DNA of 64,000 bases from Deltaproteobacteria bacterium. Lineage in GTDB: Bacteria; Bdellovibrionota_B; Oligoflexia; Oligoflexales; CAIYRB01. Each line of letters starts with the position of its first letter. The first letter of the stretch is position 1. Below, in pieces: positions 45,678 to 49,462 of this stretch. The stretch spans positions 1-64,000 of the forward strand of contig VGTI01000005.1 of NCBI GenBank assembly GCA_016874735.1, in the 5' to 3' direction. A program made the position numbers and the translations under genes. The notes under the pieces are model-generated. The model was not told the DNA's origin, did no database searches, and saw nothing but the letters and a program-made list of their open reading frames with translations.

Positions 45678-47207
45678 CTAATGCTTCTGCACATGAGCTA
45701 ATGAACTCAAGCGACCATCAGCGTAAAGCTCGAATCCGGACACCTTGTTACTGACAACGGCAAAAACATCTTCATGCCAGAGAAACACATACGGCGATTG
45801 CTCACCAACGATCTTCTGAACTTCATTATAAATAGACTGCCGCTTAGCTTGTTCCGTCTCTATCATGCCAGCCGTCAAAAGCGCGTCTAGCGGTGGCAAG
45901 GAGAACCACCCTCGGTTGCCTCCATTTGGCGGGATACTGCTCGTAGCGAAGGCAAACCTGTAAATATCGGGATCTTTGAAGCCCACCCAAGAAAGCCCCC
46001 ACAACTCCACACGCCCATGGTCCACGTCAGCCTTGAATCGGCCCCACTCCAGGGTCTCCACTTTAGTAGCAATACCAACGCGGCGCAGATCGGCGGCTAT
46101 CGCCTTAGCCACAACAATCCGCGTCTGATCCGTTGTGGTTTTGTAGCTGAGCGTTAGGCGTGGTTTTTCCCCCGTTTGGGTAAAACCCGCTTGATCCAGT
46201 AGGAGTCGCGCCTGGACTGGATCGTAAGACGGGACTGAGAGACCTGATGCATGAAAGGGACTCGAGTCGGTAATCAAGGTGTCAGCATTCAGCGCCATGC
46301 CGTTTAGTACGTATTTTATGATTTTCTCCTTATCGATCGCATGAGCAATGGCGCGTCTGACTAGCCGATTTGCGAGCGTCGCGTTCCTCACATTGAAACC
46401 TAAATAAGAGGTACTGAGACCTGGCCGATGGTAGACCTTTAGATCTGGTCGCTCCCGCGCCAGAACTTTTAATTTGTCGCGACTGATACTGTTTTGGACT
46501 AAGTCTAGCTCGCCCGCGATAAGCTTGGCGTACCGCGTATTTTCGTCCTTGACGATTTTGATCACGACAGCTGAGAGGCTGGGTGGCGGTCCAAAGCCCC
46601 AGTGCGGATTTGGCTTGAGCACGGTAGCCTGTGAGTTGGCGCTCACTAGCTGAAAGGGACCGCATCCACCCACGGGAGTTTTCTCTGTGATCACTGGCCC
46701 ATCGGCAAAGGCGGCCGGCAACACACCGACCGCTAGGTTTGCGACAAAACTCGCGTCTGGACTGTCCAGCGTCATCGTCACAGTCCGCTCCGAGGTGGCT
46801 GTAACGCTCTGTAGATTCTTAAACGCGGCGCGTCGCGGAGCCTTGCTGTCATGCTTCAAAAAATGCTGAAACGTAGCCACCACATCTTTGGGGCCAACCT
46901 CCTGACCATCGGCAAATCGGATGTGTTCGCGCAAATGCAACTGCAAAGTCGTAGGGGTCGTCCACTGCCAGGACGCGGCTAATCCTGGGGTGATTTGCCC
47001 ATCGCGGTCAAAGTTTATGAGCGCACAATGGAGTAGGTCCTCTAAATACTGGCTATTAGCATCGACCGCATACCTTGGGTCTAGACTGCGGGGTTCAGCT
47101 TCCCAGGCCAGCACGAGCTCCGTCCCGGCGCGGGCATGGGTGCCAAGGCCGGAAATTACCGCTGCTAGCAGCCACTGGAGAGCTTTGCCAGTATCCCGAG
47201 GAACCAC
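45678..47207 (-). CDS. Peptide ABC transporter substrate-binding protein (family 5)
   Basis: 509 aa with an N-terminal signal peptide (LQWLLAAVISGLGTHARA), so it is periplasmic. The family 5 (OppA/DppA/NikA-like) features are LVLAWEAEPRSLDPRYAVD near the mature start, HLREHIRFADGQEVGPKDVVATF and RLVRRAIAHAIDKEKIIKYV with the usual Y/F-rich lobes (LSTSYLGFN). It delivers peptide or another small ligand to the DppB/C permeases encoded just downstream. No ATPase gene follows the permeases, so the ATPases must be encoded elsewhere. The ligand is unknown. Confidence 0.88.
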   Translation of the reverse strand: MVPRDTGKALQWLLAAVISGLGTHARAGTELVLAWEAEPRSLDPRYAVDANSQYLEDLLHCALINFDRDGQITPGLAASWQWTTPTTLQLHLREHIRFADGQEVGPKDVVATFQHFLKHDSKAPRRAAFKNLQSVTATSERTVTMTLDSPDASFVANLAVGVLPAAFADGPVITEKTPVGGCGPFQLVSANSQATVLKPNPHWGFGPPPSLSAVVIKIVKDENTRYAKLIAGELDLVQNSISRDKLKVLARERPDLKVYHRPGLSTSYLGFNVRNATLANRLVRRAIAHAIDKEKIIKYVLNGMALNADTLITDSSPFHASGLSVPSYDPVQARLLLDQAGFTQTGEKPRLTLSYKTTTDQTRIVVAKAIAADLRRVGIATKVETLEWGRFKADVDHGRVELWGLSWVGFKDPDIYRFAFATSSIPPNGGNRGWFSLPPLDALLTAGMIETEQAKRQSIYNEVQKIVGEQSPYVFLWHEDVFAVVSNKVSGFELYADGRLSSLAHVQKH

Positions 47208-47383: not shown

Positions 47384-47944
47384 ATGGAACGAGTGAAGAA
47401 GCCGCGCCGCAGCACTTCGGTAGCTGCGCGCAAAGACACTAGCGAAGCCCCTGTGAGCGAACAACCCACGGTTGACCCGGATCAATTAGCCGATGAACAG
47501 GCCGTTGCCCTAGCCCAGGGCGCCCCGTTAGTGCCACGCGATCTGACCTTAACCGTGAAACTTTCGCGCCAGCTTCATTCGAAGCTCCTGCATTCAGCTC
47601 AAGACGAAGGTGTGCCGCTAGAGGCCCTGGTTCAAGAGCTCCTGGCAGAAGGGGCGACTTTACGAGCCTGGGAAATTATCGAGCGCAAATCCGCTATGCG
47701 CGGTCAGGCTTCGCCCAATAGTAGTAACAACGGTAACGGCGGTCATCGCAACTTTAACGCCCAGTTCTCCAACCCCAGACATGGTCAGGGCGGGGGGCGC
47801 AATGGTGCTCATGGTGGTGGCCGCCCCGGAGGCGGAAACGGCCGTGGACAAGGCGGTGGCAGACTGCAGACTGGGACTGCCTGGATGGATGACAAGGCTG
47901 CCTTCCTTGAATACGTACGCAATCAAGAGAAGCGGCGCCGTTAA
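47384..47944 (+). CDS. Ribbon-helix-helix-like protein with Gly/Arg-rich tail
   Basis: 186 aa. The central part LTLTVKLSRQLHSKLLHSAQ with EGVPLEALVQELLAEGA is shaped like a ribbon-helix-helix (HicB/Arc-type) DNA-binding unit. The C-terminal ~70 residues are Gly/Asn/Arg-rich (RHGQGGGRNGAHGGGRPGG), resembling RGG tails of RNA-binding proteins. The N-terminus is basic. No signal peptide. The gene stands between the peptide transporter operon and the convergent M14 carboxypeptidase. A nucleic-acid-binding role is inferred from composition. The partner and target are unknown, and no toxin gene is beside it. Confidence 0.65.
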   Translation: MERVKKPRRSTSVAARKDTSEAPVSEQPTVDPDQLADEQAVALAQGAPLVPRDLTLTVKLSRQLHSKLLHSAQDEGVPLEALVQELLAEGATLRAWEIIERKSAMRGQASPNSSNNGNGGHRNFNAQFSNPRHGQGGGRNGAHGGGRPGGGNGRGQGGGRLQTGTAWMDDKAAFLEYVRNQEKRRR

Positions 47945-47965: not shown

Positions 47966-48898
47966 TTATCGCCCTTGTTTGGCTGCGAGTGTCGTGGTCA
48001 AACCTGATTCACGAGCGATGACCACAGCGGCTTTCACACTTTTAGCTATGAATCTTTCATAGCGTTTGAAAAGCTCTTCCCGGGCGGTTTGGGTCGTCGT
48101 TACGGCATCGGGATCTTCGATCTCCAGACAATAAGCAAGCGTACCTTGGCCCCAAAATGCCCAGTCTTCAAAGGCTCCGCCATCACCTAGCTCCGCACCG
48201 GTTTTTACCTCATAGCCTGGTAAAAGCACGCTTTGTGCGAGCAGGGCCTGGCGCCAACCAGCGTAGGCTGCAAGTTTAGCCTGATTGGGCTCGTAACCGG
48301 TTGCCTTCAGCTGACTCGGTGCCGAGGGAGTGACTACCCAATTGATATACCCGTGCACATCGATAGCAACAGTATAAGAACGGTTCTGGAATAGCTTGCG
48401 TATTGCCCTAGTCTCTGGCTCGCTAAAGCTTGCACTACCAGGATTTTCCCGACTCAGGCCCCAAAGCACGCCAAAATTACGATTTAAATTAACACCGCGA
48501 CTGTTACTCCGTTGTCCCTGAACGCCACCATCGGGATTTGCCGCTGGCAACAGATCAAATTGCACACCGTTAGTCAGAAAAGGGATCAATGGCCCTTCGC
48601 CACGTGCTAGCCGCCTTGTGATCCATTGCACAAATTCCGTCGTCGCAGTCTCGTTGCCATGCAGGCCACCTTCGATCAGTACACGTGTCGGTGTATGCTG
48701 CCGCGGGGCATGAGCACGAACGGAGATTAACGAGATATCACGACTCTCAAGGCTTTTCGCGCGAGGATCACCAACGGCTTTAGCTAGAGTTGTCACTTCA
48801 ACCACCGGCAGAGACAACGTCTCGGCACGCGCTAGATTGGCAGTGAACGCAATTGAGATAAAGGCAATAACAGCCGGATACGACAGCTTCAGCGACAT
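47966..48898 (-). CDS. Secreted M14 zinc carboxypeptidase
   Basis: ATG 48898 gives 310 aa; TTG 48901 is also possible. The signal peptide (YPAVIAFISIAFTANLARA) puts it in the periplasm. The M14 zinc motif is HGNE at residues 80-83 (GGLHGNETATTEFV), the third ligand is in AIDVHGYINWV, and CLEIEDPDA near the C-terminus carries the likely catalytic glutamate. NPDGGVQGQRSNSRGVNLNRNFG (seen in part) matches substrate-binding Arg/Asn residues. Such enzymes trim cell-wall peptides or extracellular peptides. The ~200-base leader upstream contains an attenuator-like element (49108-49254), suggesting regulated expression. Confidence 0.87.
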   Translation of the reverse strand: MSLKLSYPAVIAFISIAFTANLARAETLSLPVVEVTTLAKAVGDPRAKSLESRDISLISVRAHAPRQHTPTRVLIEGGLHGNETATTEFVQWITRRLARGEGPLIPFLTNGVQFDLLPAANPDGGVQGQRSNSRGVNLNRNFGVLWGLSRENPGSASFSEPETRAIRKLFQNRSYTVAIDVHGYINWVVTPSAPSQLKATGYEPNQAKLAAYAGWRQALLAQSVLLPGYEVKTGAELGDGGAFEDWAFWGQGTLAYCLEIEDPDAVTTTQTAREELFKRYERFIAKSVKAAVVIARESGLTTTLAAKQGR

Positions 48899-49077
48899 CA
48901 ACTACAACTCCGCAGGGACAGTAGCAGCAGGAAGCACGACCACGAGTCGTCGCTACTACTTGGGACGCTGCAATCTTCGCTCCATGACTTAAGAAGCTAC
49001 GAGAAGTCGCGAGACGCCGAATATCTTTGGTTTTTTAAGATAAACATAAAATGATTAGTTGCGCATAGCAGCGATGA

Positions 49078-49096
49078 CTGTCAAAAGTTTTGACAG
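49078..49096. promoter_or_regulatory. Perfect 19-base palindrome: candidate operator
   Basis: CTGTCAAAA-G-TTTTGACAG is a perfect 9+9 dyad about 180 bases upstream of the carboxypeptidase start and just after the minus-strand terminator. No T-run follows it on the minus strand and only a short GTTTT on the plus strand, so an operator is more likely than a terminator. No recogniser is known. Confidence 0.4.
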
Positions 49097-49107: not shown

Positions 49108-49155
49108 AAAAAAACCGGCACCCTTAATCACATTGTGTCGAAAGGAGGTGCCGGT
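49108..49155 (-). terminator. Intrinsic terminator in the leader of the carboxypeptidase gene
   Basis: On the minus strand, ACCGGCACC (from 49155) pairs with GGTGCCGGT (to 49114) across a 24-base loop and is followed by a run of seven T (49114-49108). It lies ~210 bases before the M14 gene, so it would stop leader transcripts. One arm overlaps the pairing partner of an SD-like segment (see 49140-49255). Confidence 0.75.
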
Positions 49156-49255
49156 CCGCATGAAGATAAATGCTCCGTCAGCAATTGCTAACAGACACTT
49201 ACCTCCGTGCTACTGGGATAATGACTTAACGTATCCAACAGCATCACCTCCTTTC
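49140..49255 (-). promoter_or_regulatory. SD/anti-SD inverted repeat overlapping the terminator: candidate attenuator
   Basis: GAAAGGAGGTG (49140-49150) and CACCTCCTTTC (49245-49255) are perfect 11-base complements about 95 bases apart. Read on the minus strand, the upstream copy is an extended Shine-Dalgarno (AAAGGAGGTGAT, matching the complement of the 16S 3' end) next to an ATG. The downstream copy (CACCTCCTTT) lies in the loop and 5' arm of the terminator at 49155-49108. Pairing of the two would disrupt the terminator; ribosome occupancy of the SD would free it. A short hairpin (CAGAAC/GTTCTG, 49297-49273) lies further upstream. Confidence 0.5.
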
Positions 49256-49267
49256 CTAGGCATCTAG
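49160..49267 (+). CDS. Possible 35-aa peptide (plus strand), low confidence
   Basis: ATG 49160 follows GGAGG by 11 bases and reads 35 codons to TAG 49267, crossing the SD/anti-SD element. The peptide starts MKINAPSAIANRHLP and is Pro-rich with one Cys (HLPPCYWDND). No partner gene is near. Because it overlaps the minus-strand leader, at most one strand is likely to be translated here. It is listed only because of the strong SD. Confidence 0.2.
   Translation: MKINAPSAIANRHLPPCYWDNDLTYPTASPPFLGI
49188..49244 (-). CDS. Possible 18-aa leader peptide of the carboxypeptidase attenuator
   Basis: On the minus strand, ATG 49244 lies two bases after AGGAGG and is followed by 18 codons (MLLDTLSHYPSSTEVSVC) and TAG. 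The SD-to-ATG spacing is short. Its ribosome would cover the SD half of the SD/anti-SD repeat, so translation could decide whether the downstream terminator forms. The peptide has three Ser in a row-like cluster but no obvious repeat of a regulatory amino acid. The coding call is inference. Confidence 0.3.
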   Translation of the reverse strand: MLLDTLSHYPSSTEVSVC

Positions 49268-49462
49268 CCCATCAGAACTGCCACTTGGCCGGTTCTGTAA
49301 CTCTATTCTAACAGAATTTGCATTTGGGTCGCAGAATATTTTTAAAGATTCGGTGAACTTTTAGGCTGTGTCTTGCCTCGGTCGCCTAGTTTACATATGC
49401 TTAAAATAGCAGCCAAAACATATCGTTTGTATGAATCCGCGTCAGAGAAGGAGCGCAAAAGT

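Follow-up and report, generated by a model that had tools for sequence, protein, structure and literature searches.

The 64-kb window (the whole stretch of DNA analyzed) carries on its minus strand a gene for an M14 peptidase (47966-48901), which adjoins a gene for a family 5 solute-binding protein (45678-47207), a pair that recalls murein-peptide recycling pairs. Upstream of the peptidase gene, the minus strand from ~49298 to 49108 is predicted from sequence to be a self-contained transcript of ~190 bases, here called tiny-ORF RNA, whose parts follow in the order extended -10 element, P0, P1, SD1, tiny ORF, P3, and terminator:

49305-49313, minus strand: TGTTAGAAT, an extended -10 promoter element; TGnTAnnnT precedes P0 at this position in 26/29 copies
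49273-49297, minus strand: hairpin P0 at the predicted 5′ end, which folds in the window and in relatives with differing stem sequences
49257-49271, minus strand: hairpin P1, with changes on both sides in 4/5 pairs and 90.9% of cells paired
49245-49255, minus strand: SD1, a Shine-Dalgarno sequence of 11 to 13 nt, here GAAAGGAGGTG, a near-invariant core whose 16S-tail match of 13 nt includes the next two bases
49207-49244, minus strand: hairpin P2 inside the ORF (P2a, 49244-49240 with 49211-49207)
49188-49238, minus strand: tiny ORF MDTLSHYPSSTEVSVC, which starts with TTG and has 16 codons before TAG; the frame is intact in 29/29 copies
49202-49206, minus strand: SD2, GGAGG, 8 nt before the last sense codon, forming the P3 5′ arm
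49162-49206, minus strand: hairpin P3, stop codon near the apex, 11 to 17 pairs around the stop in 29/29 copies
49140-49150, minus strand: anti-SD CACCTCCTTTC, with CACC in the P4 stem and TCCTTTC (49146-49140) in the P4 loop
49108-49155, minus strand: P4 terminator hairpin and T run, both present in the window
48969-48984, minus strand: TGGAGCGAAGATTGCA, a conserved sigma54-type promoter that would serve the M14 gene and lies beyond the RNA and its terminator

The RNA of the window folds with a z score of -5.65 and, as in dual-function small RNAs, has a promoter and a terminator of its own, both recognized as sequence motifs. We infer that it is transcribed and translated.

The first-pass annotation had described an 11-base perfect inverted repeat at this site, one half of which is an extended Shine-Dalgarno sequence matching the 16S 3′ end, and both observations hold. 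GAAAGGAGGTG (49245-49255) and CACCTCCTTTC (49140-49150) are perfectly complementary over 11 bp, and the 16S tail of the window's genome reads GGATCACCTCCTTTCT, so that GAAAGGAGGTGAT complements it across 13 nt. GAAAGGAGGTG occurs a total of four times in the 4.65-Mb genome, namely as both repeat halves, in the 16S 3′ tail, and in one ordinary-looking SD. Simple arithmetic gives ~0.004 11-bp repeats expected by chance within 193 bases. Across 64 kb, by contrast, chance would produce one or two with spacings up to 100, so the repeat by itself is weak proof, and the case for its reality rests on conservation.

BLAST matches in relatives were strong within Oligoflexales and confined to this order. 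When 84,980 species genomes were scanned with a degenerate pattern, 23 stretches matched, 21 of them in Oligoflexales-type bins (assigned by title or common locus); the two actinobacterial matches (L036 and L041) lack the ORF and were dismissed as chance. With a covariance model (strong match, E of 1e-16 or better), 28 genomes from seven families of Oligoflexales gave strong matches, one of them with two copies, for a total of 29 copies, all within this order, and a second pattern search recovered the same distribution. The covariance search gave no strong match in the class's other families. Weak matches in Silvanigrellales-type genomes (L105) and in f11 (L106; f1 to f13 are the family labels of the genome search) lie inside or before genes and were set aside as chance, and the match in G010 was unconvincing. 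The RNA was not found in families f4, f5, f7, and f11, an absence that is uncertain where genomes are incomplete, and none was found directly downstream of orn in f4, f7, and f11. The second copy in G022 (L076) occupies another locus and has a shorter loop. Rfam yielded no match at gathering threshold in the 64 kb (the best weak match, ncr1175, scored 21.7 bits versus a threshold of 60), viral sequences contained no match to the RNA, and a search of open-licence papers retrieved no description of such an RNA. We conclude that these predicted transcripts form a previously undescribed family found only in Oligoflexales; if so, this new RNA family, absent from Rfam, marks an order of mostly uncultured bacteria.

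Judging from the 29 copies, five parts make up the conserved core, which the first-pass annotation did not describe: P1, SD1, the ORF, SD2 (the second GGAGG), and P3, whose apex carries the stop codon. P3 has a mean z of -3.8 across the copies, with a variable stem sequence, and P2a has 91.8% of cells paired, with a both-sided change in one pair only. The terminator is present in the window and many relatives; the T run after P4 is missing in several. The frame annotated earlier, 49244-49188, exists, but its ATG start stands only 2 nt from GGAGG and relatives start elsewhere, which favors the in-frame TTG at 49238, 8 nt from GGAGG. A start codon (ATG, GTG, or TTG) lies 6 to 12 nt past the SD1 GGAGG in every copy and opens an ORF of 16 codons in the window and of 14 to 18 in relatives. 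Since the SD-to-stop length varies modulo 3 between families, the position of the start codon compensates. All 29 ORFs end in GAG-GTN (GGG GTG in one copy), three codons, and TAA or TAG, never TGA. The 26 distinct ORFs are all open with the placed start and ending, whereas shuffles average 3.7 such ORFs and never exceed 11, and the other two real frames are open in 3/26 and 1/26. A 35-amino-acid antisense frame on the plus strand is lost beyond close relatives and was discarded.

The 3′ half of the repeat had been placed within a terminator. This terminator is real, with stem arms ACCGGCACC (49155-49147) and GGTGCCGGT (49122-49114) followed by T's to 49108, but only CACC of the anti-SD belongs to the stem, the remaining TCCTTTC being in the loop; SD1 could therefore pair there with the terminator stem unopened, as a pseudoknot that the folding program does not score. 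Folds with SD/anti-SD pairing and with the terminator are predicted to be nearly isoenergetic (-83.8 versus -80.2 kcal/mol), a near-equality that holds in f1 and f8g9, and forced SD:anti-SD folds are ~2 to 9 kcal/mol better than those leaving SD1 single-stranded (f1, f8g9, and G008). The anti-SD complement spans 10 to 11 nt in f1 (7/7), 11 nt in G008, and 8 to 9 nt in 5/6 f8g9 copies; it is at chance level in f6, f9, G016, and f8g15 and weak or absent in G007 and f10. A competing pairing like the one proposed at first sight may thus form in the window's family and some others, and segments 49140-49150 and 49245-49255 stay complementary in f1, G008, and most of f8g9. Because the complement is missing in f6, f9, f10, and G016, SD/anti-SD pairing falls outside the conserved core.

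The same annotation had this pairing switch transcription into the carboxypeptidase gene. In such a ribosome-dependent attenuator, a ribosome on SD1 would leave P4 to terminate, whereas free SD1 paired to the anti-SD would allow read-through. The similar energies of the two folds in f1 and f8g9 are compatible with this scheme, as is the finding that a strong complement occurs mostly in families with M14 downstream, but G008 has a strong complement despite a convergent next gene, and G022 has M14 downstream and no complement. Furthermore, the RNA core persists where M14 is missing. Of the 28 copies with enough flank, 12 are followed directly by M14, one has M14 as its second gene downstream, and 15 have no M14 on that side. 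It is not next in Oligoflexus-type genomes (f6 except G022), f8g15, f3, f9, and f10, and the downstream gene is convergent at L033, L040, L048, L052, L032, and L102 (six genomes, in f6 and f3). The sigma54-type promoter past the terminator, which would itself drive M14, stands 61 to 69 nt before the M14 start at six of six same-genus loci (the window and five relatives) and also precedes M14 at f8g9 loci. The strict motif is found in 8/12 f1 and f8g9 loci where M14 follows (0.008 expected), a looser one in L094, and another by eye in L093; RpoN is encoded in 41/43 genomes. With convergent or unrelated downstream genes and a separate promoter, control of M14 was rejected as the general function, and we deem an attenuator of this kind improbable. 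In leader-peptide attenuators of the trp and tnaC type, a short ORF overlaps alternative hairpins before a terminator. Tiny-ORF RNA shares this layout of short ORF, alternative hairpins, and terminator, but it has no conserved downstream gene, rare-codon run, or known arrest sequence. Ancestrally, the gene order was apparently orn, (phosphopantetheinyl transferase), RNA, M14, and other genes, with RNA and orn separated in f8g9, f3, and perhaps f9. In f8g15 (L136, L137, and L139), the -10 element of the RNA falls within the final codons of orn. A 9-bp inverted repeat without mismatches (CTGTCAAAA-C-TTTTGACAG) occupies positions 49078-49096, past the RNA terminator and ahead of the M14 promoter. 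Similar TGTCAA...TTGACA sites occur in G004 and, less perfect, in G002 and G005, so this repeat is perhaps an operator.

The 14- to 18-residue peptide might instead be the active product, with the hairpins merely metering its synthesis as in fold-back type I toxin mRNAs. Preservation of the frame and of a C-terminal pattern (S-T/A/M-E-V-x-V-S/C/F) in all copies would agree with a micropeptide mRNA, as would SD sequestration by a 3′ anti-SD like that of AapA mRNAs (PMC6733600). However, the N-terminal half varies freely, the peptides are polar rather than hydrophobic as small hydrophobic toxins are, and no residue-level selection was detected, the synonymous fraction and BLOSUM score being not above those of column-permuted controls, a test that is masked by RNA pairing. 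In Helicobacter, the AapA type I toxin mRNA has a short ORF whose SD is closed by a distant 3′ anti-SD, which renders the full-length RNA translationally inert, and it encodes a toxin countered by an antisense antitoxin (PMC6733600). Tiny-ORF RNA resembles it in having a short ORF and an SD closable by a 3′ anti-SD, but its peptide is non-hydrophobic, its fold-back is lineage specific, and its conserved part is the second SD with the stop in a hairpin. We consider an active micropeptide rather unlikely.

Rather than controlling the neighboring peptidase gene, tiny-ORF RNA appears to be made for loading ribosomes and perhaps for holding them. On balance, it is probably a stand-alone, lineage-specific, ribosome-engaging small mRNA or sRNA, the SD of which would be closed by fold-back in some lineages. 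The spacing from SD2 to the last sense codon is exactly 8 nt in 29/29 copies, whereas that from SD1 to the start varies, and GAG is the codon at SD2 in 25/26 distinct ORFs. As 8 nt is also the commonest SD1-to-start spacing, tied with seven, a terminating ribosome could pair with SD2. The 3′ arm of P3 varies while the 5′ GGAGG is constant, which suggests a binding role beyond pairing; alternatively, pairing or a protein (e.g., CsrA), not the ribosome, could be the reason why GGAGGUG is kept in P3. We tentatively envisage a ribosome-parking RNA that reports or titrates ribosome state. Its unusually strong SD1 would load a ribosome on the 14- to 18-codon ORF, and once this ribosome reaches the stop inside the hairpin, SD2, 8 nt from the P-site codon, would pair with the 16S tail and hold it. 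The held ribosome would keep P3 open; in its absence, P3 would close over SD2 and the stop, after which the 3′ anti-SD of some families, the window's included, would fold back on SD1 and shut initiation. We know of no described RNA with paired SDs at start and stop. At the programmed frameshift site of prfB, an SD-like sequence inside the ORF stands at a short fixed distance from the stop. Tiny-ORF RNA likewise has an SD-like sequence within its ORF at a fixed distance from the stop, but this sequence is 8 nt away from the P-site codon, the stop is never UGA, and no second ORF follows into which a ribosome could shift. If SD2 does hold terminating ribosomes, this would be a minimal natural system in which to study the effect of SD pairing at a stop codon and the switching of RNA folds by an ORF of 16 codons.

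Alternatively, the RNA could act in trans, either as a CsrA decoy via GGA motifs or as an anti-SD sRNA via the UCCUUUC P4 loop. GGA motifs are present at SD1 and SD2, csrA was found in 36/43 genomes, and UCCUUUC lies in the loop in f1, f8g9, and G008. Nevertheless, a Csr/Rsm decoy needs many unpaired GGA motifs, and only two or three conserved sites exist here, one of them paired in P3. As for csrA, it was not detected in RNA-bearing G008 (96% complete) and is present in RNA-less f11 and f5. The decoy was rejected. For an anti-SD sRNA, the loop is missing in f6, f9, and f10. Either form of action in trans leaves the open frame unexplained, and we give this reading little credence. The anti-SD loop recalls the principle of Staphylococcus aureus RNAIII, a dual-function sRNA. 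VcdRP is another dual-function sRNA (PMC8672173). Like both, the ribosome-engaging RNA proposed here would be stand-alone and structured, with a small ORF and a possible anti-SD loop, but its ORF is smaller, its architecture and taxon are different, and no Rfam sequence relation links it to them.

Elsewhere at the locus, the plus strand (47384-47944) encodes a protein without Pfam match that ends in a low-complexity Asn/Gly/Arg-rich tail. This protein is encoded close to the RNA at 14 loci; an RNA-less f11 genome (L149) seems to have it as well, close to orn.
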